64,000 bases of DNA from contig NZ_PDNW01000002.1 in the NCBI RefSeq assembly GCF_002849655.1, positions 124,001-188,000 on the forward strand, written 5' to 3'. The first letter of the stretch is position 1. Every line of letters begins with the position of its first letter. This document shows, piece by piece, positions 28,119 to 39,306 of this stretch. The translations under genes and the position numbers were made by a program. The DNA is from Pollutimonas subterranea (lineage in GTDB: Bacteria; Pseudomonadota; Gammaproteobacteria; Burkholderiales; Burkholderiaceae_B). The notes under the pieces are model-generated. The model did not search any database and was not told where the DNA came from. It saw only the letters and a list, made by a program, of their open reading frames with translations.

Positions 28119-29951
28119 ATGGCATTGCATTCCGTCGTTCAACGCGTGTCCGAGCGCATCATCGAACGCAGCCGCGCTACCCGCGAGCAGTATATGGCCC
28201 GCACCCGTGCGGCCTGTGGAAAGAAGGTCGAGCGGGCCCATCTGGGATGTACCAACCTTGCTCACGCCATTGCCGCCATGCCTGTGCCGGAAAAACAGCG
28301 CCTTAAAGCCGCGGCACGCCCCAACCTGGCCATTGTTTCATCCTATAACGACATGCTCTCGGCCCACCAGCCACTGGCCGCCTATCCCGCCCTCATCAAG
28401 CAGGCCGCCTTCGCGGCCGGCGGAACGGCACAGTTTGCCGGCGGCGTCCCCGCCATGTGCGACGGGATTACACAAGGCGAAACCGGCATGGAGCTTAGCC
28501 TGTTCTCGCGCGACGTGATTGCAATGTCGACGGCCATCGCGCTTAGCCACCAGATGTTCGACGCAGCTGTATTCCTGGGCGTTTGCGACAAGATTGTTCC
28601 GGGCTTGCTGATAGGCGCCTTGAGCTTCGGCCATTTACCCGCTGTATTCATTCCGGCCGGACCCATGAGTACTGGCATATCGAACAGCGCCAAGGCTCAT
28701 ACCCGCCAACTGTTCGCCCAAGGCAAGGCAAGCCGGTCCGAACTGCTTGAGTCTGAAGTGCAGTCTTATCATGGGCCAGGTACCTGCACGTTCTACGGTA
28801 CGGCCAATTCAAACCAGATGCTCATGGAAATCATGGGCCTGCATTTGCCCGGCGCAGCCTTCGTACCGCCCAATACGGCACTGCGCGAGGCGCTCACCCG
28901 GGCAGCCGCCCAGCGCGCCCTGATGCTCGGCCACCAGGGGGACCAATTTACGCCCGTTGCCGAAGTGATCAGCGAAAAAGCGATTGTGAACGGCATCGTC
29001 GGCCTGCTTGCCACCGGCGGCTCGACCAACCACACCTTGCATCTGGTCGCTATTGCACGTGCGGCGGGCATTGCCATCAACTGGGACGATTTCTCGGACC
29101 TCTCGAGCATCGTGCCGCTGCTGGCGCGCGTGTATCCCAACGGCGGGGCCGACGTGAACCATTTCCATGCCGCGGGCGGCATTGGATTGGTGATCGCGGA
29201 ATTGCTGGATGCCGGACTGGTGCACGCAGACGTCAAGACTGCCGCCGGCGACGGTCTTAGGCACTACACGCAAGAGCCGTACCTGGCCGACGGGAAACTG
29301 GCCTGGCGGCCCGTTGCGCCTGCATCGCTGGACAGGGCCGTTATCCGTCCCGCCAGCCAGCCATTCAGTGCGGATGGCGGGCTGAAGCTGCTCCAGGGCA
29401 ACCTGGGAAGGGCCATGATCAAAGTATCCGCAGTCAAACCCGAACATCGCCGTGTCCAGGCTCCCGCTCTGGTATTCAATAGCCAGGAGGCGTTGCTGGC
29501 GGCCTACCAAAGAGGCGAACTGGCGCGCGATTTCGTCGCCGTCGTGCGCTACCAGGGCCCGTCGGCGAACGGCATGCCGGAGCTGCACAAGCTGACGCCT
29601 GCCTTATCGGTGTTGCAAGACCACGGGTTCCAGGTGGCACTGGTGACCGACGGCCGCATGTCCGGCGCATCGGGCAAGGTACCTGCCGCCATACACGTCA
29701 GCCCCGAAGCCCTTGGCGGCGGACCCCTGGCATTGCTGCGCAATGGTGATATCGTAAGCCTGGACGCCGACGCCGGTGTACTGTGCGTTCTGGAGCCTTC
29801 CAATTGGCTGGAACGCAGCCCGGATCCGGTAAACATTGATACGCACGCCACCGGTTTCGGGCGCGAGCTTTTCGCGTCGGCGCGCCAACATGCCGGCACG
29901 GCGGAATCGGGCGCCACACTTTTTCAACACCCAGACTGGGCCGCGTCTTAA
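28119..29951 (+). CDS. edd: 6-phosphogluconate dehydratase
   Basis: This 610-aa IlvD/Edd-family [4Fe-4S] dehydratase converts 6-phosphogluconate to 2-keto-3-deoxy-6-phosphogluconate, the first ED-specific step. [16 protein letters not shown] near residue 70, [20 protein letters not shown] near residue 112 and [18 protein letters not shown] near residue 510 are Edd blocks; the Cys in PAMCDG and in [11 protein letters not shown] are cluster ligands. The close Edd wording separates it from IlvD. It is followed after 28 bases by eda and preceded by HexR sites. Confidence 0.96.
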
Positions 29952-29979
29952 GCACAGTCCCCCCACGAATGAGAAACCC

Positions 29980-30606
29980 ATGAATGCTCTTGAACTACTC
30001 GAACAAAGCCCTGTAATGCCAGTGATGGTCATCAAGGACCTCGATACCGCCGTCGAACTGGCCCGCGCCCTGGTGGCCGGCGGCGTGCGCAGCCTTGAGA
30101 TAACCTTGCGTTCCGAAGCGGCACTGCAAGCCATTTCGTTGATCACCCAGGAGGTTCCTGAAGCATTGGTCGGGGTGGGCACGGTGCGCAGCGCTCAGCA
30201 GCTCGACGCCGCAGTCAGGGCCGGCGCGCGCTTTGCCGTCAGCCCGGGGCTGACGGCCGACATCGCGCAAGCAGCGCGCCAAGCAGGCATTGCATTCCTG
30301 CCCGGCATTGCCACGCCCTCGGAGTCCATGTTCGCCGCGGACCACGGCTTTATCGTACAGAAGCTGTTTCCCGCAGAAGCCGTGGGCGGCGTGGCGCTGC
30401 TGAAGGCCTTGTACGGTCCCCTGCCCGATATCGTGTTCTGCCCGACAGGGGGCATCAATGCAGGCAATGCCGCCCAGTACCTGGGCTTGCCCAATGTGAA
30501 ATGCGTGGGTGGTTCGTGGCTCACGCCGGATGCAGCGGTGTCGGCCAAAAACTGGGGCGACATTACAGAACTGGCCCGGCAGGCATGCCTGCTGCGCAAA
30601 TCGTAA
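29980..30606 (+). CDS. eda: KDPG aldolase
   Basis: This 208-aa class I aldolase cleaves 2-keto-3-deoxy-6-phosphogluconate to pyruvate and glyceraldehyde-3-phosphate. Blocks include SLEITLRSEAALQAI (with the catalytic Glu region), VGVGTVRSAQQL, FLPGIATPSE and VQKLFPAEAVGG with the Schiff-base Lys, and FCPTGGINAGNA for phosphate binding. ATG 29980 gives the usual start; the frame upstream lies in edd. It ends 16 bases from the convergent kguD stop. Confidence 0.96.
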   Translation: MNALELLEQSPVMPVMVIKDLDTAVELARALVAGGVRSLEITLRSEAALQAISLITQEVPEALVGVGTVRSAQQLDAAVRAGARFAVSPGLTADIAQAARQAGIAFLPGIATPSESMFAADHGFIVQKLFPAEAVGGVALLKALYGPLPDIVFCPTGGINAGNAAQYLGLPNVKCVGGSWLTPDAAVSAKNWGDITELARQACLLRKS

Positions 30607-30622
30607 CGCCGCCTTCCGCTCC

Positions 30623-31600
30623 CTACCTTGCAGGCGCGGGACTATAAGCCGCCAGGGGCTGCTTGCCTTGCAAGGCAAGCAGCAGATTGGTGGTGGCCAT
30701 TTCGCACATGGCCCGGCGGGTTTCATGCGTGGCCGAACCGACATGCGGCAGCGCCAGCACTTTGGGATGCGTGCGCAAAAGAGAATCGACCGGCAAAGGC
30801 TCGATGTCGAACACGTCCAGGCCGGCAGCCCGCAACTGCCCATGCTCCAATGCCTGCAACAGGGCTGCCTCCTGGACGATAGGCCCGCGCGCGCCATTGA
30901 TCAGGATAGCGCCAGGTTTCATCAAGGCAAATTCCTGCGGCCCGATCAAGCCGCGCGTCTGTTCGGTCAAGGGCAACACCAACACGATGAAATCCGACTG
31001 CATCAGCACTTCGCGCAAGGTGACCGGCTGTGCGCGACCTTCAGGTAGACCGCTAGGCACCGGGGTGCGCGTGTGATAGAGCACCGGCATATTGAATCCC
31101 AGCGCCGCGCGATGAGCCAATGCCTGCCCAATACGCCCATAGCCCAGTATGCCCATGGTCTTGCCATGCACATCCCAGCCGTAGAGGTCTTCGCCCACGC
31201 TGCGATTCCATTGCCCTTCCCGGACATACCGGTCGAGCTCGGCGACGCGGCGGCTGGTGGCAAGCACCATGGCAAAAAGCAGATCGGCAACCGTCTCCGT
31301 GAGCACGCCCGGCGTATGGCACAAGGTGATGCCGCGACGGTGCAAGGCATCGGGCGAAAATTGATCCAGGCCCACCGAAATACTGGAAATGACTTCCAGG
31401 CGGGGAGCCAGCGTAAGCACCTCTTCATCAATGGGGTAGCTGGATCCTATCATCCCCTCGGCGGTGGGCAAGGCCTTCAGGAACGCATCCTTCTGGCCGG
31501 CTACGCGCGGGTTCGCGATCACGACATCATGCTCTTGCTGGATACGGGCCAATTGATCCGGCGGCAGTTGCCTGTAAACCAATACCTGTCTGCGGCTCAT
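30623..31600 (-). CDS. kguD: 2-hydroxyacid dehydrogenase, likely 2-ketogluconate-6-phosphate reductase
   Basis: This 325-aa D-isomer-specific 2-hydroxyacid dehydrogenase has the Rossmann motif GILGYGRIGQALAHRAALGF near residue 148. Catalytic positions are Arg in NGARGPIVQEAAL, Glu in DVFDIEPLP and His in LPHVGSATHE. In Pseudomonas KguD reduces 2-keto-6-phosphogluconate to 6-phosphogluconate; the neighbouring kguK and kguE and the PtxS operator favour that role over a general glyoxylate/hydroxypyruvate reductase. ATG 31600 is chosen as the family start. It is the last gene of the minus-strand operon. Confidence 0.85.
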   Translation of the reverse strand: MSRRQVLVYRQLPPDQLARIQQEHDVVIANPRVAGQKDAFLKALPTAEGMIGSSYPIDEEVLTLAPRLEVISSISVGLDQFSPDALHRRGITLCHTPGVLTETVADLLFAMVLATSRRVAELDRYVREGQWNRSVGEDLYGWDVHGKTMGILGYGRIGQALAHRAALGFNMPVLYHTRTPVPSGLPEGRAQPVTLREVLMQSDFIVLVLPLTEQTRGLIGPQEFALMKPGAILINGARGPIVQEAALLQALEHGQLRAAGLDVFDIEPLPVDSLLRTHPKVLALPHVGSATHETRRAMCEMATTNLLLALQGKQPLAAYSPAPAR

Positions 31601-31655
31601 TTTCGGGACTCCATTGTTTGCCGGGGACCTCCGAACGCCAGTGCCGGACGGCACA

Positions 31656-32615
31656 CTAACGTCCGGCCTGCTCGAGCACGTCGCGGGTGGGCAGGCCTTC
31701 GGTGTCGCCCAGTACCTGCACGGCGCGGGCGCCTATCCATGCGCCCCGCTCGACCGCCTTGCGCAAAGGCAGTCCCGCCAGCAACGCGCTGATCACGCCT
31801 ACCGCAAAACCATCGCCCGCACCTACTGTATCAAGCACGGTATCGACAGGGAATCCGGGCACGTAACCGCGTTCGTCGCCATTGTCGAAATAGGCGCCCT
31901 TCGCACCCAGCTTGATCACAACGAGCCGGGGGCCGCCCATGCGGGTGCCGCCGGCTCGGTAAAAGCCGGCGATGTCTTCGGGGGTTTCATGTCCCGTCAG
32001 AAGTCGGCCCTCTTCGATGCCGGGGAAGACCCAGTCGGCTGAGAAGGCCAGCTCATTGATGCCTTCACGCATTCGTTCGGTCGAAGGCCACAAGGTGGGA
32101 CGCAAATTGGGATCGAAGGAAACGGTCTTGCCCGCCTCGCGCATCAAGGCCATGGTCTTGCGCTGTACCTCGAAACAGTTGTCAGAGATTGCCGCAAAAA
32201 CACCGGTGCTATGCAGATGCCGGGCGCCGCACAGCCACGCCTCATCCACGTCGGACACCTGCATCTGGCTTGCGGCAGAACCCTTGCGGTGGTATTCGAT
32301 GGGTGGATCGCTGCCATCGGTGACGCGGCCCTTGAACTGCATGGCAGTGCGTTGCGTGGGATCGCTCACCACGTGTGAACAGTCGATGCCCTCGCCTTGC
32401 ATCTCGGCAAGCAGATAGCGGCCCATGGAATCGGCGCCCAGGCGGCTGGCCCAGCCTACTTTCAAGCCCAAGCGCGCCAGCCCGATCGCGACATTGGTCT
32501 CGGCGCCCGCTGTGCGCCTATGAAAGGCCTTAGCGTGCTCCAGTGGTCCGGGCTGGTCGGCCACCAGCATCATCATCGCTTCGCCGAAAGTCACGACATC
32601 CAATTCGCCGCTCAT
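31656..32615 (-). CDS. kguK: PfkB-family sugar-acid kinase, likely 2-ketogluconate kinase
   Basis: This 319-aa ribokinase-family enzyme has TFGEAMMMLVADQPGPLE at the N-terminus, the RTAGAETNVAIGLARLG substrate lid region near residue 34, and the ATP/catalytic motif DTVGAGDGFAVG near residue 256, whose Asp is the catalytic base. 2-keto-3-deoxygluconate kinases look similar; the link to kguE, kguD and PtxS makes 2-ketogluconate the likelier substrate. It overlaps kguE by 4 bases. Confidence 0.85.
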   Translation of the reverse strand: MSGELDVVTFGEAMMMLVADQPGPLEHAKAFHRRTAGAETNVAIGLARLGLKVGWASRLGADSMGRYLLAEMQGEGIDCSHVVSDPTQRTAMQFKGRVTDGSDPPIEYHRKGSAASQMQVSDVDEAWLCGARHLHSTGVFAAISDNCFEVQRKTMALMREAGKTVSFDPNLRPTLWPSTERMREGINELAFSADWVFPGIEEGRLLTGHETPEDIAGFYRAGGTRMGGPRLVVIKLGAKGAYFDNGDERGYVPGFPVDTVLDTVGAGDGFAVGVISALLAGLPLRKAVERGAWIGARAVQVLGDTEGLPTRDVLEQAGR

Positions 32616-33385
32616 GAGCGTTTCTCCAGGTTGCGCAAGCCATCAATGGCGTCGCGGGTCACAGACAGCAAATCGTCGCCGATCAAGGGGTATTCAATGG
32701 CGCATGGCGTATCGCCGGGAAGCGCCCTCAATATCGCACGCCAGGGTGCGCTGGATTCGGCAAGGGGAACCGCGACCCAGCGTGCGGGTTGACGCTGCAC
32801 CCCTTTGCAATGTACGTAGCGTACGCGATTTGAAAATACGTCGGCGGCCTGAACCGCACATTCGCCCACCCAATGCCAATTGCCCATGTCGAAGGTCATG
32901 CCCAGGTCCAGCCCGTAAGCGTCGGCGGCCCCAAAAAACCGCTGCAACGCGTCCAGTGTGCCGGCAGCGGCGGTCTGGTCGTTCTCGATAAGCAGACGCA
33001 CGTTCTGCCGTTCCAGGGTCTGCTTCAGCACCCCAAGCGTCTCGGAGCTGGCCCGCTCGAAATGGCCTATGGACATCTTGAGCACCGGGGCATTCAGGCT
33101 GACCGCGCGAGCAAGGCTTTGTTGCAGCGCGTCCAGATTCAATAGCCCCGAAGTCTCCCAGAGCATCTCCGGGCAAGAATAGACGCAGGACAAGCCGGAC
33201 TGGCTTATGCCGGCGGCAAGTTCGTCCAGCTCTTGCGCATGGCCCTGAAGCAGCTCACCGCGAATCTCAACGCCATCGGCACCGGCGGCGCGGCACAGCT
33301 CGACGAACCACCCCTGCCCGTGGCGCCGCACTTCGCTCGCGCCGAAAGAGGTCAAAGAAATAATAATCTGTCTGGACGAATTCAT
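32612..33385 (-). CDS. kguE: TIM-barrel sugar epimerase/isomerase-like protein KguE
   Basis: This 257-aa xylose-isomerase-like TIM-barrel protein matches KguE, the first gene of the Pseudomonas kgu operon, whose exact reaction is not firmly known. Visible blocks are GADGVEIRGELL near residue 33, LKMSIGHFER near residue 100, RLLIENDQT near residue 130 and FDMGNWHWVGE near residue 165, with the acidic and His residues expected at the metal site. ATG 33385 is used; the frame extends to 33436 without support. It overlaps kguK as ATGA. Confidence 0.82.
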   Translation of the reverse strand: MNSSRQIIISLTSFGASEVRRHGQGWFVELCRAAGADGVEIRGELLQGHAQELDELAAGISQSGLSCVYSCPEMLWETSGLLNLDALQQSLARAVSLNAPVLKMSIGHFERASSETLGVLKQTLERQNVRLLIENDQTAAAGTLDALQRFFGAADAYGLDLGMTFDMGNWHWVGECAVQAADVFSNRVRYVHCKGVQRQPARWVAVPLAESSAPWRAILRALPGDTPCAIEYPLIGDDLLSVTRDAIDGLRNLEKRS

Positions 33386-33476
33386 GGTTCCATAGGAGCC
33401 GCATAAATGGGGCTCGCCAATGAGAGGACGCGGCAAGACGCAGCCGGGGATCGATCGATACGGCTGCGGTAAAGAC

Positions 33477-34271
33477 CTAAGAGTTCAGGATCTGTCCGAG
33501 GAAGCTGCGGGTCTTCTCGTTCTCGGGATTGCTGAAGAACTTTTCCGGTGGCGCCTGCTCAATTATTTTACCGTCCGCCATGAAAATGACCCGGTCCGCC
33601 ACGCTGCGGGCAAAACCCATTTCATGCGTCACGCACAACATCGTCATGCCGTCCTCGGCCAATCCGATCATGGTATCGAGCACTTCCTTGACCATTTCGG
33701 GATCGAGCGCCGAGGTGGGCTCATCGAACAACATGATTTTCGGCGTCATGCACAAGGCCCGCGCGATGGCCACCCGCTGTTGCTGTCCGCCGGACAACTG
33801 GCTGGGATACTTGCGCGCCTGATCAGCGATACGGACCCGGGTCAGGTATTTCATGGCCATGGTCTCGGCTTCCTGCGAGCTGATGCCTCGTGAGCGCATG
33901 GGCGCCAGCATGCAATTCTGCAGCACCGTCATATGCGGGAACAGATTGAACTGCTGGAACACCATGCCCACTTCCTGGCGGATCGCATCGATATTGCGCA
34001 CATTGGCGGTCAGGTCGATGCCATCTACCACAATACGGCCTTGCTGGATCTTCTCAAGGCCGTTGATGCAGCGGATCAGCGTCGATTTGCCCGAACCCGA
34101 AGGCCCGCAAATGACGATCCGTTCACCCGTTGCAACCGTAAGGTCAATATCGGTCAGGGCATGGAACTTGTCGTACCACTTGTTGAGAGCGTCGATTTCG
34201 ATGATGGTCCCGCCTTGCTGCGCGGGACCACTCGACACATCGACCGCGATAGTGGTCTGTCTGTCAGTCAT
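33477..34271 (-). CDS. PAAT-family ABC transporter ATPase (predicted 2-ketogluconate uptake)
   Basis: This 264-aa ATPase is of the GlnQ/HisP class. It has Walker [17 protein letters not shown] near residue 55, Q-loop [13 protein letters not shown], signature [15 protein letters not shown], Walker [15 protein letters not shown] and the switch His in VTHEMGF. It powers the permease pair at 35165-36489 with the binding protein at 34290. The class normally moves polar amino acids, but the genes sit in the PtxS/kgu operon. It starts 18 bases after the binding-protein gene and ends 91 bases before kguE. Confidence 0.88.
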
Positions 34272-34289
34272 GATGAATTGCCAGGTTGA

Positions 34290-35096
34290 TCAAGAGGCTT
34301 TCAGTTCAGGCAGGGGAGCACCCAGCCATTTCTCGAAGAGCTTGCTGAATTCGCCGCTCTTGATGTTCTTGTCGACCATCTGGTTGACCGCCTCAAGGGT
34401 CTTAGCTTCGCCTGGACGCAGGGCTACCGCCATTTCCTGCTGAAGCAATACGAATTTATTCTCGAAACGGTCTGGAGCGCGCTGGGCGATCTGGCCGGCG
34501 ACGGTCGTCGAGCAACCAATGGCATCAACCTGGCCCGACAGCAATGCCTGCATGGCCGAGGCGTCGTCATCGAAGCGGCGGATGTTGGCATCCTTTGGGG
34601 CGATTTTGCTTACAGCGATATCCTGGGTGCTGGCACGGGCCACACCAATACGCAAGCCCGACAGGTCTTCCGCCTTGGCGATCTTTGTGTCTTTGCCGCC
34701 GAACACGACAATCTGGGCTGCCGAATAGGGATGGGAAAACTGTACCTGCTTGGCGCGTTCAGGAGTGATCGCGAGCGACGCAATCAGCATGTCGACTTTG
34801 TTGGTTAACAGGTAAGGAATGCGATTGGGGCCTGTAACGGGAACAATATTGACCTTTACGCCCAGGTCTTTCGCCAATTGGCGTGCCACATCGGCATCGT
34901 AACCATCGGGCTTGTTTTCAGTATTCAGGATGCCATAGGGCGGAAAATCAACAAGCATGCCCACGGTGAGCTCGCCCTTCTCCTTGATTTGGTCTATGGT
35001 TTCGGCCTGCGCCGCGGTGGCGCCCATCGCCAGGGCGGCACAACTGGCCAGTAAGGTCGCACCCACAAAGCTGCGCATTTTCTTGATTACGAACAT
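34290..35096 (-). CDS. family-3 periplasmic binding protein (predicted 2-ketogluconate binder)
   Basis: This 268-aa protein has a Sec signal (cleavage after AAQA, about residue 31) and the family-3 amino-acid-binding fold. Arg114 in ITPERAKQVQFS is the conserved carboxylate-binding Arg. The Asp that clamps the alpha-amino group of amino acids, expected five residues after the DA of SGQVDAIG, is Ser196 (CST). That change and the kgu context suggest a ligand with a carboxylate but no alpha-amine, such as 2-ketogluconate. This is an inference; an amino acid ligand is not excluded. Confidence 0.85.
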   Translation of the reverse strand: MFVIKKMRSFVGATLLASCAALAMGATAAQAETIDQIKEKGELTVGMLVDFPPYGILNTENKPDGYDADVARQLAKDLGVKVNIVPVTGPNRIPYLLTNKVDMLIASLAITPERAKQVQFSHPYSAAQIVVFGGKDTKIAKAEDLSGLRIGVARASTQDIAVSKIAPKDANIRRFDDDASAMQALLSGQVDAIGCSTTVAGQIAQRAPDRFENKFVLLQQEMAVALRPGEAKTLEAVNQMVDKNIKSGEFSKLFEKWLGAPLPELKAS

Positions 35097-35164
35097 TTCA
35101 TGTCTCCAGGATTGAAGTAAACGTCAACAAAGCACGGGCGCAGAACTATCGCTGCGCCCAGGTT

Positions 35165-35818
35165 CTAGCGTGAAAGCGACACGGCAAGGCGCCGTTCCAT
35201 ATAGGAAGCCAGCAAAGACAGGGGCCAGCATAGTAAAAAGTAGATGGCTGCGACCACCGAAAACACCACCATGGGCTGGAAGGTAGCGTTATTGATGATC
35301 TGGCCCGCACGGGTCAACTCGGTGAAGCCGATAATGGCCGCCAGCGAGGTGCCCTTCACGATTTGCACCATATATCCCACTGTGGGAGGCACGGCAACCT
35401 TCAGCGCCTGCGGCAGCACCACGTCGCGCATTTTGTAGCGATACGACAGGCCCAGCGCTTCGGCGGCTTCCCACTGGCCGCGTGGAATTGCCTGGATGCA
35501 GCCGCGCCAGATCTCGCCCAAAAATGCGCCACTATTGAGGGTAAGCGCCACTGCCGCGGCAATCCAGGGATTCACATCGAGCCCGAGTACCGGCGCGCCA
35601 AAAAAGACCAGGAACAGTTGCAGCAACAGGGGCGTTCCCTGGAACAGCTTTATGAATCCCATGGAGGCGCCGCGCGCAATCGTATTATCGGATGAACGCG
35701 ACAGCGCAACAATCAGCCCGACAATGCCGCCGCCGATGAAGGCCATGATGGACAAGGCGATGGTCCACTGGGCGGCTTCGATAATGAACCAGAAATCGGA
35801 ATAGCCAAAAGTACGCAT
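35165..35818 (-). CDS. PAAT-family ABC transporter permease 2
   Basis: This 217-aa inner-membrane permease of the HisM/GlnP class has hydrophobic spans near residues 15-38, 55-80 and 185-210, and the EAA segment EAAEALGLSYRYKMRDVVLPQALK near residue 130. The start ATG 35818 shares one base with the stop of the preceding permease gene (TAATG), a sign of tight coupling. It forms a heterodimeric pore with the product of 35818-36489. Confidence 0.9.
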   Translation of the reverse strand: MRTFGYSDFWFIIEAAQWTIALSIMAFIGGGIVGLIVALSRSSDNTIARGASMGFIKLFQGTPLLLQLFLVFFGAPVLGLDVNPWIAAAVALTLNSGAFLGEIWRGCIQAIPRGQWEAAEALGLSYRYKMRDVVLPQALKVAVPPTVGYMVQIVKGTSLAAIIGFTELTRAGQIINNATFQPMVVFSVVAAIYFLLCWPLSLLASYMERRLAVSLSR

Positions 35819-36489
35819 TATCGACGGTCCGGATAATTGAGGCCCCACTGGTAGATCAGTCGGAACAGATAAGAAAAGGCCAGGGTAAGTAGAAGGTAGA
35901 TGCCGGTCACGACGATATAGATCTCGAAGCTTCGGAAAGTCTCGGACTGCAGGTTGGCGGCCACCGAAGTGAGGTCATCGGCCGATATCACCGAAACGAC
36001 GCTCGATGCCAGCATCAACAAGATGAATTGGCTGGTCAGTGCGGGATAGATCGCCTTCAACGCCGGCTTGAGCACAATAAAACGGAAGATTTCGATGCGC
36101 GACAGGCTGAGTGCGGCTCCGGCTTCGATTTGGCCTTTGGGGATGGATTCGATACCGGCGCGCACGATCTCGGTCGCGTACGCACCCAGGTTGAACACCA
36201 TGGCCACCAGCGCTGCCGTATAGGGCGACCAACGTACTCCGACCGCGGGGAGCGCAAAGAAAAAGAAAAACAACTGCACGAGGAAGGGGGTATTGCGTAT
36301 GACTTCGATATACGCATTGATGATCCAGCGCAACGGGGCGGGACCTGCCGTCTTGCCCCATGCGCAAAAAATCGCAACGAGGGATCCGAGCACCATTGCC
36401 ATGAATGACAGCTGAATAGTCATCCAGGTGCCGTGAAGCAACAAAGGCCAAGCGTCGAAGACCGGGCCAAATTGGAAGGAATAATTCAC
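35818..36489 (-). CDS. PAAT-family ABC transporter permease 1
   Basis: This 223-aa HisQ/GltJ-class permease begins NYSFQFGPVFDAWPLLLHGTW, the usual amphipathic opening, and has the EAA-loop block IEAGAALSLSRIEIFRFIVLKPALK near residue 140. It is the first gene of the operon on the minus strand; 187 bases separate it from ptxS, and they hold the PtxS palindrome and a second dyad. Substrate is predicted from context to be 2-ketogluconate. Confidence 0.9.
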   Translation of the reverse strand: MNYSFQFGPVFDAWPLLLHGTWMTIQLSFMAMVLGSLVAIFCAWGKTAGPAPLRWIINAYIEVIRNTPFLVQLFFFFFALPAVGVRWSPYTAALVAMVFNLGAYATEIVRAGIESIPKGQIEAGAALSLSRIEIFRFIVLKPALKAIYPALTSQFILLMLASSVVSVISADDLTSVAANLQSETFRSFEIYIVVTGIYLLLTLAFSYLFRLIYQWGLNYPDRR

Positions 36490-36587
36490 GTTATCTCAGA
36501 CCTAAGGTATTGCCGGCGGGTCAAGCTTACCGCGTTGTGGCGGAAAATACCTACAAAAAAAGCATATCGCCATAAGCATGACGCCCC

Positions 36588-36603
36588 ATCAATAAGTATT
36601 GAT
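36588..36603. promoter_or_regulatory. 16-base inverted repeat, candidate second operator
   Basis: ATCAATA and TATTGAT form a perfect inverted repeat with a 2-base spacer, in the AT-rich leader between ptxS and the transporter operon, 18 bases from the PtxS palindrome. The binding protein is unknown; it could also be part of the promoter region. Confidence 0.4.
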
Positions 36604-36621
36604 TTGCACGCTATTTGCGTA

Positions 36622-36635
36622 TGAAACCGGTTTCA
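36622..36635. promoter_or_regulatory. PtxS operator
   Basis: The 14-base perfect palindrome TGAAACCGGTTTCA equals the operator sequence known for PtxS of Pseudomonas. It lies 41 bases downstream of the ptxS stop and 132 bases before the first permease start, in the only long gap of the operon. 2-Ketogluconate releases PtxS in Pseudomonas, so induction by that sugar acid is expected here. Confidence 0.88.
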
Positions 36636-36676
36636 CGTCGGGGCGACAAGACTGAAAATTATATCAGGACTTTTGC

Positions 36677-37711
36677 CTAGGCGGTCGCCGGACGCGATGA
36701 ACCCCGGGCCATCAATGTGCCGGGCAACAAGATTTGACGCGCCGCAACGGTCGATCCTGCCACCCGTTGCATGAGGCATTGTGCCGCCTTGCGTCCGAGC
36801 TCATTGGTAGGCTGGGACACCGTGCTGATGCCTGGTCCCACGTACGGCGCCCATTCGGTATCGTCGATACCGACCAGGCCAATGTCCTTTCCCAATTCCC
36901 ACCCCAGCCGGTCGACGGCGGCGACGACCCGCAGCGTCACGACAGCATTGTTGGCGATGATCGCCGGCATGGCGGACCTGGCTCGGGCGCGGTCACGGCA
37001 TGCCCGCAACGCATCGGCCAGGGCGTCTCTATCTTGTTCGCGGCTTTCGGTGCAGCGCCCCGAGACCGGGGGATGCCCGGCGACGAATGCATCGAAGGCC
37101 CGAGCGCGCTCAACCCGGGAGCTGACCTCCCCCAGCGGTTCGGTGACCAGCAACAGCTCGTGATAGCCGGCGTCGAACAGATGCTGTGCGCTCAAATAGA
37201 TGGCTTGATGATTGTCCAGCGAGACGAAGTCCACGTCGAGCCCTTTGTGCAGGCGGTCGACCAATACCATGGGCTTGCCTTGCCTTGCGGTCTCCAGGAG
37301 CGCGCCCGCATCATGGCCCATGGTATTGAGTATGAAACCTTCAACCCGATACGACGACAAGGCATGAATGCCTGCGGTTTCGCGTTCGCCTTCATTGCCC
37401 AGGTTGAACAGCATAAGCAGGTAGCCGGCTTCACGGCATGCCTGCTCGGCGCCCCGCAGGACAGCCACGGAATAGGGATTCGTAATATCGGCCACGACCA
37501 GCCCTATAAGGCGCGAGCGCCCGCGCTTCAGGGATTGGGCCATCGGGCTGGGGGTATAGCCCAACTGCGCGATCGCGGTTTCCACGCGGATTGCAATCTC
37601 GGGAGAAAGCAGGGTTTCGCGATGATTGAGAAAACGCGATACGGTGGCTTTGGAAACGCCCGCGTGACGAGCTACGTCGGCTATTGTGTTGCGGGCCGGG
37701 CTTTTGATCAT
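36677..37711 (-). CDS. ptxS: LacI-family regulator PtxS
   Basis: This 344-aa LacI-type repressor has the HTH NTIADVARHAGVSKATVSRF at residues 8-27, hinge residues near 57-65 (SLKRGRSRLIGLVVADITNP) and a periplasmic-binding-protein-like effector domain. The wording NPYSVAVLRGAEQACREAGY resembles Pseudomonas PtxS. The perfect PtxS palindrome downstream and the kgu genes support 2-ketogluconate as effector. It is divergent from zwf, and the spacer carries a HexR site. Confidence 0.88.
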   Translation of the reverse strand: MIKSPARNTIADVARHAGVSKATVSRFLNHRETLLSPEIAIRVETAIAQLGYTPSPMAQSLKRGRSRLIGLVVADITNPYSVAVLRGAEQACREAGYLLMLFNLGNEGERETAGIHALSSYRVEGFILNTMGHDAGALLETARQGKPMVLVDRLHKGLDVDFVSLDNHQAIYLSAQHLFDAGYHELLLVTEPLGEVSSRVERARAFDAFVAGHPPVSGRCTESREQDRDALADALRACRDRARARSAMPAIIANNAVVTLRVVAAVDRLGWELGKDIGLVGIDDTEWAPYVGPGISTVSQPTNELGRKAAQCLMQRVAGSTVAARQILLPGTLMARGSSRPATA

Positions 37712-37808
37712 GGTTGGGTCTGACAGGTGAATGCGTGAATCGATGATACCGTTACGATGAACATAACACGCTCACCCTTCCCGATTTGCACTTTACATTG
37801 TGGGCGGC

Positions 37809-37825
37809 CTGTAGCTTAATTACAT
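37809..37825. promoter_or_regulatory. HexR-type operator upstream of zwf
   Basis: CTGTAGC and ATTACAT flank a 3-base spacer (TTA), matching the HexR pattern TGTARTnnnAYTACA apart from a mismatch in the left arm. It ends 20 bases before the zwf ATG and lies between the divergent ptxS and zwf genes. As hexR is the fourth gene of the zwf operon, this gives autoregulation. Confidence 0.75.
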
Positions 37826-37845
37826 TTTCGATCAGGGAGCTTTCC

Positions 37846-39306
37846 ATGGCCACCACGCCGGCATTCGATATCGTTTTTTTCGGCGGCACCGGCGACCTGG
37901 CACTACGCAAACTGCTTCCCGCGCTATACCAGGCTCACAAGGCAGGCGCCTTGCATGCGGACGGCCGCATTTTTGCACTGGGCCGCAAGCCCATCGGACT
38001 TGAAGGTTACCTTGACCTGCTGCAGCAGCGGGTCCGGCCCAAGCTGGGCGGCGACTACGATGACAAAGTATGGGAAAGTTTCGTCAGCCGCCTGCAATTC
38101 CAGACTCTGGATGCCGGCAATATCGAAGACTATCGCAAGCTGGTCGCGGCAATGGACAGCCCAGGCAACCGCATTACGGTATGTTATCTGGCGACTGCTC
38201 CCCACCTGTTCATCCCTATCTGCCAGAACCTGGCTGCGGTGGGCCTGAACCATCCCTGTGTCCGCATCGTCCTGGAAAAACCCCTGGGTCACGACCTGGA
38301 ATCGTCCGGCACCATCAGCGAGGCGGTGGGACAGTGCTTTGCGGAAAACCAGATATATCGTATCGACCACTACCTGGGTAAAGAGTCGGTACAGAATCTG
38401 ATGGCGATCCGCTTCGGCAACACACTGTTCGAACCCCTGTGGCGCCGCGAATGGATAGACAATATACAAATCACCATTGCCGAAGACCTGGGCGTGGAGG
38501 AACGCGGCGAATTCTATGATCGCACCGGAGCACTGCGGGACATGCTGCAAAGTCATCTGCTGCAGCTTCTGTGCATCGTAGCCATGGAACCCCCGCCCAG
38601 CCTTTCCGAGGACGCAATACGCGATGAAAAGCTGAAGGTACTGAGGTCGCTCAAGCCCTTCAGCACTGAAGACGTGCTGTCCAAAAGTGTACGAGGCCAA
38701 TATCGCAGCGGCGCCATCAACGGCATGCCAGTGGCGGGATACCGCGAAGAACTGAATGTGGCGCCGGATAGCAACACCGAAACTTTTGTTGCCTTGCAAG
38801 CGGAAATCGTCAACTGGCGCTGGGCCGGCATTCCTTTTTTCCTGCGTACCGGCAAGCGCCTGCAAGAGCGGGTAGCCGAGATCGTCATCAATTTCCGGGA
38901 CGTTCCGCATGCGCTGTTTCCCTCACCCCTGGGTTCGCACTGCGCCAATCGCATGGTCATAGGCCTGCAACCCAAGGAAAGCGTGCGCCTGTATTTCCTG
39001 GCCAAGGAGCCAGGCGATGCGATGAATCTGCAATCCACTTACCTCAATCTGGATTTCCACGCTATGTCTAAGTCGCGCCGCGCCGATGCCTATGAGCGCC
39101 TGCTGCTGGACGTCATACGCGGGCAATTGTCGCTTTTCATGCGCCGCGACGAGCAGGCGCAGGCGTGGGCCTGGGTCGAGCCTATATTGGAATGCTGGAA
39201 CAAACACTCGGTCCCGCCAAAACCCTATACGGCAGGCAGCTGGGGCCCCGCCGCTTCCAGCGCCCTGGTTTCGCGTGCCGGGGTGGTGTGGCATGAGGAG
39301 ACCTGA
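37846..39306 (+). CDS. zwf: glucose-6-phosphate 1-dehydrogenase
   Basis: This 486-aa Zwf oxidises glucose-6-phosphate to 6-phosphogluconolactone with NAD(P)+. The coenzyme motif FFGGTGDLALRKLLPALY is at residues 9-26 and the catalytic site YRIDHYLGKESVQNL is near residue 172. ATG 37846, preceded by CAGGGAG, is chosen; the frame reaching 37786 would run through the HexR operator. First gene of zwf-pgl-glk-hexR. Confidence 0.96.
   Translation: MATTPAFDIVFFGGTGDLALRKLLPALYQAHKAGALHADGRIFALGRKPIGLEGYLDLLQQRVRPKLGGDYDDKVWESFVSRLQFQTLDAGNIEDYRKLVAAMDSPGNRITVCYLATAPHLFIPICQNLAAVGLNHPCVRIVLEKPLGHDLESSGTISEAVGQCFAENQIYRIDHYLGKESVQNLMAIRFGNTLFEPLWRREWIDNIQITIAEDLGVEERGEFYDRTGALRDMLQSHLLQLLCIVAMEPPPSLSEDAIRDEKLKVLRSLKPFSTEDVLSKSVRGQYRSGAINGMPVAGYREELNVAPDSNTETFVALQAEIVNWRWAGIPFFLRTGKRLQERVAEIVINFRDVPHALFPSPLGSHCANRMVIGLQPKESVRLYFLAKEPGDAMNLQSTYLNLDFHAMSKSRRADAYERLLLDVIRGQLSLFMRRDEQAQAWAWVEPILECWNKHSVPPKPYTAGSWGPAASSALVSRAGVVWHEET

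Follow-up and report, generated by a model that had tools for sequence, protein, structure and literature searches.

The closest described system is the kgu operon of Pseudomonas, consisting of ptxS and kguE-kguK-kguT-kguD. There, KguT imports 2-ketogluconate, KguK phosphorylates it, KguD carries out the reduction to 6-phosphogluconate, and 2-ketogluconate releases the repressor PtxS (PMC5902321, PMC11678583). A kguT knockout of P. plecoglossicida loses 2-ketogluconate use, as stated in the accessible text of PMC11678583, and thus an operon without KguT needs another carrier. We have analyzed such an operon in Pollutimonas subterranea, located in a stretch of 64,000 nucleotides (hereafter, the window) of a genome of 4,544,755 bases. 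Here, four genes of a polar-amino-acid-type ATP-binding cassette (ABC) importer lie with kguE, kguK and kguD behind a ptxS gene, and our analysis makes it probable that this PtxS-controlled importer replaces KguT and imports 2-ketogluconate.

The order of transcription, on the minus strand, is ptxS, a PtxS palindrome, permease 1, permease 2, binding protein, ATPase, kguE, kguK and kguD, with all reading frames open and in a single direction. Compared with the Pseudomonas operon, the repressor, an exact operator between ptxS and the first operon gene, the kinase, the reductase and KguE are shared, whereas kguT is missing and the four ABC genes stand ahead of kguE. No major facilitator superfamily (MFS) protein was present among the ten products scanned at 28119-37711. 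The gene order given by the original prediction was confirmed by the frames and family scans. Its range of 32612-37711 omitted kguK and kguD, found at 30623-32615.

The transporter genes gave clear family assignments. Permease 1 (35818-36489) and permease 2 (35165-35848) both matched PF00528 and scored 103.5 and 98.1 bits, respectively, with TIGR01726 (HEQRo_perm_3TM, cut-off 42.2). The periplasmic binding protein (34290-35096), the predicted 2-ketogluconate binder, belongs to family 3 (PF00497, 125 bits), and the ATPase (33477-34271, PF00005) is GlnQ-like, its best NCBIfam model being GlnQ with 320.6 bits, under the cut-off of 379. The upstream ptxS gene (36677-37711; Pfam LacI and Peripla_BP_3) codes for a LacI-family repressor, the predicted 2-ketogluconate sensor, with 42-44% identity to the LacI protein heading Pseudomonas kgu loci; over the first 62 residues, identity to the two Pseudomonas repressors compared was 53% and 55%.

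The three enzyme genes follow the ATPase gene. The product of kguE (32612-33436, PF01261) is a sugar isomerase-like TIM barrel whose sole solved relative at E≤0.01 was P. aeruginosa PA2260 (E 4.5e-50), which we take to be kguE. The PfkB-family kinase encoded by kguK (31656-32615, PF00294), the putative 2-ketogluconate kinase, had as best solved relative the uncharacterised PfkB protein 4du5, followed by a 2-keto-3-deoxygluconate kinase. It shares 54-59% identity with the kinases of 21 named KguT loci, which come from Pseudomonas, Burkholderia, Caballeronia, Trinickia, Buttiauxella and Chimaeribacter. The 2-hydroxyacid dehydrogenase KguD (30623-31654, PF02826/PF00389) was closest among solved structures to a "probable 2-ketogluconate reductase" (E 7.5e-73) and 47-53% identical to KguD of KguT-type loci. 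Judging from the frames, translation probably starts at the ATG at 33385 in kguE, at 31600 in kguD and at 35818 in permease 2.

The palindrome TGAAACCGGTTTCA, which is strandless, occurs as an exact copy at 36622-36635, and this is the only exact copy in the genome, where about 0.02 would be expected for a 14-mer at equal base frequencies. The claim of a perfect PtxS palindrome behind ptxS was thus borne out. An identical 14-mer is the PtxS site shown in Pseudomonas, according to the available parts of PMC5902321 and PMC11678583. With up to two mismatches, 22 places were found in the genome versus 17 for the reversed control, and up to three mismatches gave 3 sites in the window versus 2.04 expected, no better than chance; hence only the exact copy was used as evidence. 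Some 130 bases separate the operator from the first start codon; in P. plecoglossicida, by contrast, it overlaps a transcription start 34 bases ahead of kguE (PMC11678583). The window scan found no second palindrome in front of ptxS (37712-37860), unlike several Comamonadaceae and Pseudomonas loci, in which it stands on both sides of the gene. Among the 28 other loci of the family, the operator adjoins permease 1 in 25, and exactly 25 exact copies were present in their 348,058 bases.

The same gene set, which the original prediction proposed to seek in related Alcaligenaceae, was found there. KguE was carried by 23 of the 151 genomes of the family, and the ATPase gene adjoined kguE in all 23; in one of them (L016), the contig ends within the ATPase gene and the binding protein lies on a separate contig. 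A search with the binding protein detected 27 genomes of the family at ≥75% identity and two at 63%. In 28 of these 29 genomes, the window included, kguK adjoins the ABC genes. In genome G021, the contig with the binding protein ends in the ATPase gene and a second contig carries on with kguE and kguK. This recurrence of the same gene order across the family indicates that the arrangement did not arise by chance.

The distribution extended beyond Alcaligenaceae into Comamonadaceae, with a divergent form in Cupriavidus and Oxalobacteraceae. A search of 399 genomes from the order with the KguE profile gave 9 matches, which included the window and one family genome already counted. Two matches (G855, G682) carried the ABC type of the window (type A) and one (G688) the divergent ABC type (type B), while three (G631, G763, G792) had an MFS gene between kguK and kguD, with PF07690 in all three; in G611, kguE and kguK only were found. 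At the level of the class (369 genomes), the profile matched 2, the window and G422, the latter with kguE and kguD only. Type B, seen in Cupriavidus, Herbaspirillum and Janthinobacterium, resembles type A in having a polar-amino-acid-type ABC importer in the kgu locus and no KguT nearby, and differs in that its binding protein is only 37-39% identical and comes first in the gene order.

We have then compared the carriers of named loci, taken as the best 80 of 567 confirmed stretches from one scan with the kinase alignment. The carrier was called from genes within 6.5 kb, requiring ≥55% identity for the binding protein or KguT, or ≥70% for permease 1. This gave 39 loci of type A, 7 of type B, 21 with MFS KguT and 13 uncalled, and none with two types; the named and family samples overlap, at least 7 named type A loci being in both, among them that of Pollutimonas bauzanensis. 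At least four of the uncalled loci (L115, L116, L137, L150) are cut by a contig end, and others are kinases in other neighbourhoods. In the KguT loci, kguT stands between kguK and kguD in 19 of 21, kguD not being found in the remaining two (L164, L168). In 36 of the 39 type A loci, kguD starts at most 134 bases after kguK, which leaves no room for a carrier gene, so that the place of KguT is empty.

KguT was likewise sought elsewhere in the genomes. The MFS protein in the KguT position of locus L090 had a best match of 35% identity in the 151 family genomes, and the search at E≤1e-50 detected no KguT ortholog in the genome of the window, with 11 of 23 candidates scored. In 13 ABC-type genomes that hold named loci (7 of type A and 6 of type B), the best KguT match was 37%, versus 85% and 87% in two KguT-type controls. 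The matches at 30-37% were taken as general members of the MFS superfamily. ABC and KguT carriers are therefore mutually exclusive, both at the level of single loci and in these 15 genomes. The two carriers have in common the operon and the proposed substrate, and differ in superfamily (PF07690 for KguT) and in energization, KguT being a secondary carrier and the importer described here being ATP-driven with a periplasmic receptor.

The importer could still be an ordinary amino-acid transporter that came to lie in the operon by chance, with 2-ketogluconate entering via an unrecognised carrier. The family to which it belongs, presumably the polar amino acid uptake group TC 3.A.1.3, shares with it a family-3 binding protein, two HEQRo-type permeases, a GlnQ-like ATPase and the carboxylate Arg (HisJQMP, GlnHPQ, ArtPIQMJ). 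An AlphaFold2 model of the binding protein (mean predicted local distance difference test, pLDDT, 86.3; residues 1-29 below 50 and unreliable) led in a fold search to arginine-, tryptophan- and ancestral amino-acid-binding proteins as the top matches by E-value, and the best shape match among the 50 listed was an open cystine receptor, with a template modelling (TM) score of 0.87 on the target. Both sequence and fold neighbours bind amino acids.

The binding pocket pointed elsewhere. It was judged from alignment alone, with E. coli HisJ, ArgT, GlnH, ArtJ, GltI, TcyJ and the putative ArtI as controls. Type A was represented by the window and 37 of the 39 named proteins, L107 being omitted by the length and stop filter and L122 for its short frame. 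At position 196 (window numbering), all 7 E. coli relatives have Asp, a residue that, by alignment to HisJ, we assume to hold the alpha-amino group, whereas the 38 type A proteins all have Ser and the 7 type B proteins all have Pro. Arg114, which aligns to the Arg presumed from HisJ to bind the alpha-carboxylate, is kept in all 45 kgu-linked proteins and all 7 controls. Arg92, Arg114 and Arg154 are invariant in types A and B, which thus share both the three arginines and the loss of Asp; among the controls, Arg occurs at 92 in GltI only and at 154 in none. In addition to these residues, linkage to sugar-acid genes sets the importer apart from the amino acid systems. With Asp missing in every kgu-linked protein aligned, the linkage holding in both Alcaligenaceae and Comamonadaceae and no KguT ortholog found, we regard a chance amino-acid importer as very unlikely.

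An amino sugar acid such as D-glucosaminate, feeding the same pathway, would be another candidate ligand, and polar-amino-acid-type importers for glucosamine or glucosaminate have reportedly emerged from mutant-fitness work. An alpha-amino acid would, however, be expected to keep the Asp for the amino group, and no deaminase was named among the ten products scanned at 28119-37711. This explanation appears the least likely of those considered.

Uptake of a neighbouring sugar acid (2-keto-3-deoxygluconate, gluconate, 5-ketogluconate or a mix), with 2-ketogluconate at most one of the substrates, deserves more weight. The nearest non-kgu binding proteins (L067-L071) are 46-55% identical to that of the window, keep Arg92, Arg114 and Arg154 and lack the Asp. 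In four of these loci (L067, L068, L069, L071), a neighbouring 285-residue frame had as best NCBIfam model 2,4-didehydro-3-deoxy-L-rhamnonate hydrolase (436-439 bits, under the cut-off of 500), adjoined by a 248-residue frame, which in the two loci scanned (L067, L069) codes for a short-chain dehydrogenase; L070 is without this pair. Kinases related to KguK likewise stand with a D-mannonate dehydratase (L109) or a galactarate/altronate-type dehydratase (L155). Finally, the outlier genome G134 (locus L066) carries the ABC genes of type A, with a binding protein of 61% identity. They adjoin edd and eda, a LacI gene of another kind and a reductase with 39% identity to KguD, and kguK was not found in the 13 kb fetched. 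Against these observations stand the exact PtxS operator and the joint presence of PtxS, KguE, KguK and KguD, both linked to 2-ketogluconate in Pseudomonas (PMC5902321, PMC11678583), and the failure to find a KguT ortholog in the ABC-type genomes tested. A neighbouring sugar acid as the principal ligand therefore seems improbable, although clearly less so than an amino acid.

Several findings count against 2-ketogluconate import by this operon and have to be weighed with the above. Since kinases with 58-70% identity to KguK are also encoded where no kgu genes are nearby, KguK alone is no proof of substrate. The loss of Asp is not unique, since among six other family-3 proteins of the window genome that were aligned (5 of 11 others were left out) position 196 is Asp in 3, Ser in 1, Thr in 1 and Glu in 1. 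The pocket signature speaks for an acid without an amino group rather than for 2-ketogluconate specifically, as it is common to relatives outside kgu operons. Gene content also varies: kguE was not seen in 6 of the 29 ABC genomes of the family (G110, G080, G052, G102, G122, G013), and kguD is missing beside kguK in five relatives (L038, L041, L063, L064, L074), in which the reductase may sit elsewhere. Both the operator and ptxS (≥50%) are missing in 3 of the 28 fetched stretches (L045, L046 and L060, from genomes G049, G009 and G110), where another regulator may be at work. A slightly loosened operator pattern was detected close to the operon in 33 of 39 type A loci, in only 2 of 7 type B loci and in 11 of 21 MFS loci. 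In the window genome itself, PF13618 (gluconate 2-dehydrogenase, small subunit) gave no match, so that its 2-ketogluconate would come from outside or from another enzyme; two of its proteins score above the TIGR03074 cut-off (membrane-bound pyrroloquinoline quinone dehydrogenases). The ligand is predicted to be 2-ketogluconate, with a neighbouring sugar acid possible.

The claim that an ABC importer has taken over 2-ketogluconate uptake gained comparative support from the replacement of KguT, the mutual exclusion of the carriers and the lost Asp. Certainty about the ligand did not, because relatives of KguK and of the transporter also adjoin genes for other sugar acids. We consider the ABC-type 2-ketogluconate importer in the place of KguT a well-supported prediction from sequence, more widespread than first thought and not a new kind of system. 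Growth data are compatible with it without bearing on the carrier: Cupriavidus strain JMP134, which lacks the kinase gene, fails to grow on 2-ketogluconate, while other strains of the genus do grow (PMC2842291). The original prediction also held that such a carrier had not been described, which stands within the literature searched, where no paper on or bench test of an ABC carrier for 2-ketogluconate was found, most subscription journals lying outside its scope.

By analogy with Pseudomonas, in the absence of 2-ketogluconate PtxS bound to the palindrome ahead of permease 1 would block the operon, whose genes are presumably co-transcribed. Periplasmic 2-ketogluconate would be caught by the binding protein through the carboxylate Arg and the two further arginines, and passed to the permease pair for ATP-driven import. 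KguK would convert it into 2-keto-6-phosphogluconate and KguD would reduce this to 6-phosphogluconate, which the neighbouring edd and eda products would take through the Entner-Doudoroff route, while intracellular 2-ketogluconate would release PtxS. The operon is surrounded by Entner-Doudoroff genes. On one side lie edd (28119-29951, plus strand; TIGR01196, 980.9 bits, above cut-off) and eda (29980-30606, plus strand; TIGR01182 and NF004325, both above cut-off), and on the other zwf, a 6-phosphogluconolactonase-family gene, glk and a regulator with an RpiR helix-turn-helix and a SIS domain, which we take to be HexR-like.

If the prediction is correct, a wide set of Burkholderiales import 2-ketogluconate by means of ATP and a periplasmic receptor, presumably with high affinity. 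Pseudomonas-type bacteria secrete this acid while oxidizing glucose (PMC10634833), and Burkholderiales with such an importer could live on what their neighbours spill. The annotation of genes that now resemble those of amino-acid transporters would also be corrected, a change of ligand from amino acid to sugar acid could be recognized from sequence, and the operon would offer a clean natural case of carrier replacement under one regulator.

We have also addressed the origin of the carriers. The tree of binding proteins joined type A to non-kgu relatives (support 89/86) and placed type B apart, a single A and B clade not being rejected (approximately unbiased test, p-AU 0.29). With permeases and ATPase joined, A and B as one clade was rejected (p 0.0004), a value partly due to two non-kgu rows nested in type A; when these relatives were included, A and B versus the rest was not rejected (p 0.096 and 0.098). 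Type B permeases and ATPase were nearest to non-kgu loci (99/92). Taken together, two recruitments rather than one are favoured by these trees. The kinase tree, of 62 chosen loci, placed KguT loci and Oxalobacteraceae type B on one side (100/100) and type A and Cupriavidus type B on the other; both groups also contained non-kgu kinases. Since type B transporters accompany kinases from both sides of the tree, the carrier seems to have moved independently of the enzyme genes.

The rhamnonate-like neighbours hint at a sugar-acid branch of the transporter family. We tentatively propose, as a history plausible though somewhat more apt to fail than to hold, that a branch of polar-amino-acid ABC importers switched to sugar acids by losing the Asp and gaining two cleft arginines, and entered kgu operons at least twice, displacing KguT each time. 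Its substrates would, as part of this joint proposal, be ketoaldonates and acids of an L-rhamnonate/L-fuconate-like pathway.

Some related loci showed features of their own. In L069 (6260-9297) and L070 (6001-8982), the permeases and ATPase are 66-74% like those of the window and the binding protein only 49%, as if the receptor had been exchanged on a kept channel. In L109 (4879-11776), the kinase beside the D-mannonate dehydratase is 70% identical to KguK and accompanied by another polar-amino-acid-type ABC importer; it is probably a 2-keto-3-deoxygluconate kinase close to KguK. The outlier L066 encodes a 262-residue protein with weak similarity to 4-oxalocrotonate decarboxylases and 2-keto-4-pentenoate hydratases, possibly indicating a non-phosphorylating route.

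The idea that ABC carriers mark scavengers unable to make 2-ketogluconate was not supported and was dropped. Among 39 genomes searched, PF13618 was present in 4 of 17 of type A, 6 of 6 of type B and 14 of 16 of MFS type, one type A and one type B match being barely above the cut-off; the difference between type A and MFS (Fisher p 0.0004) comes from a statistic that ignores kinship. Within the family, a match at E≤0.001 was obtained for 9 of the 29 genomes with the ABC genes and for 40 of the remaining 122 (p 1.0), three of the 40 being below the cut-off.

The leader between the operator and the first permease (36490-36621, minus strand) contains, at 36490-36560, an inverted repeat AGGTATT..AATACCT that flanks a GCGGTA(A/T)GCTT core. 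Rfam gave no match on the leader at E≤1, and RNA covariation was slight in 12 leaders hand-picked by eye from 61 distinct ones (covariation term -0.27 kcal/mol, with 2 of 11 pairs changed on both sides). The repeat is kept in part of the family, recurring in about a dozen related leaders and being absent where the operator is close to the start codon. A second operator, a promoter or an RNA hairpin are candidates for its role.

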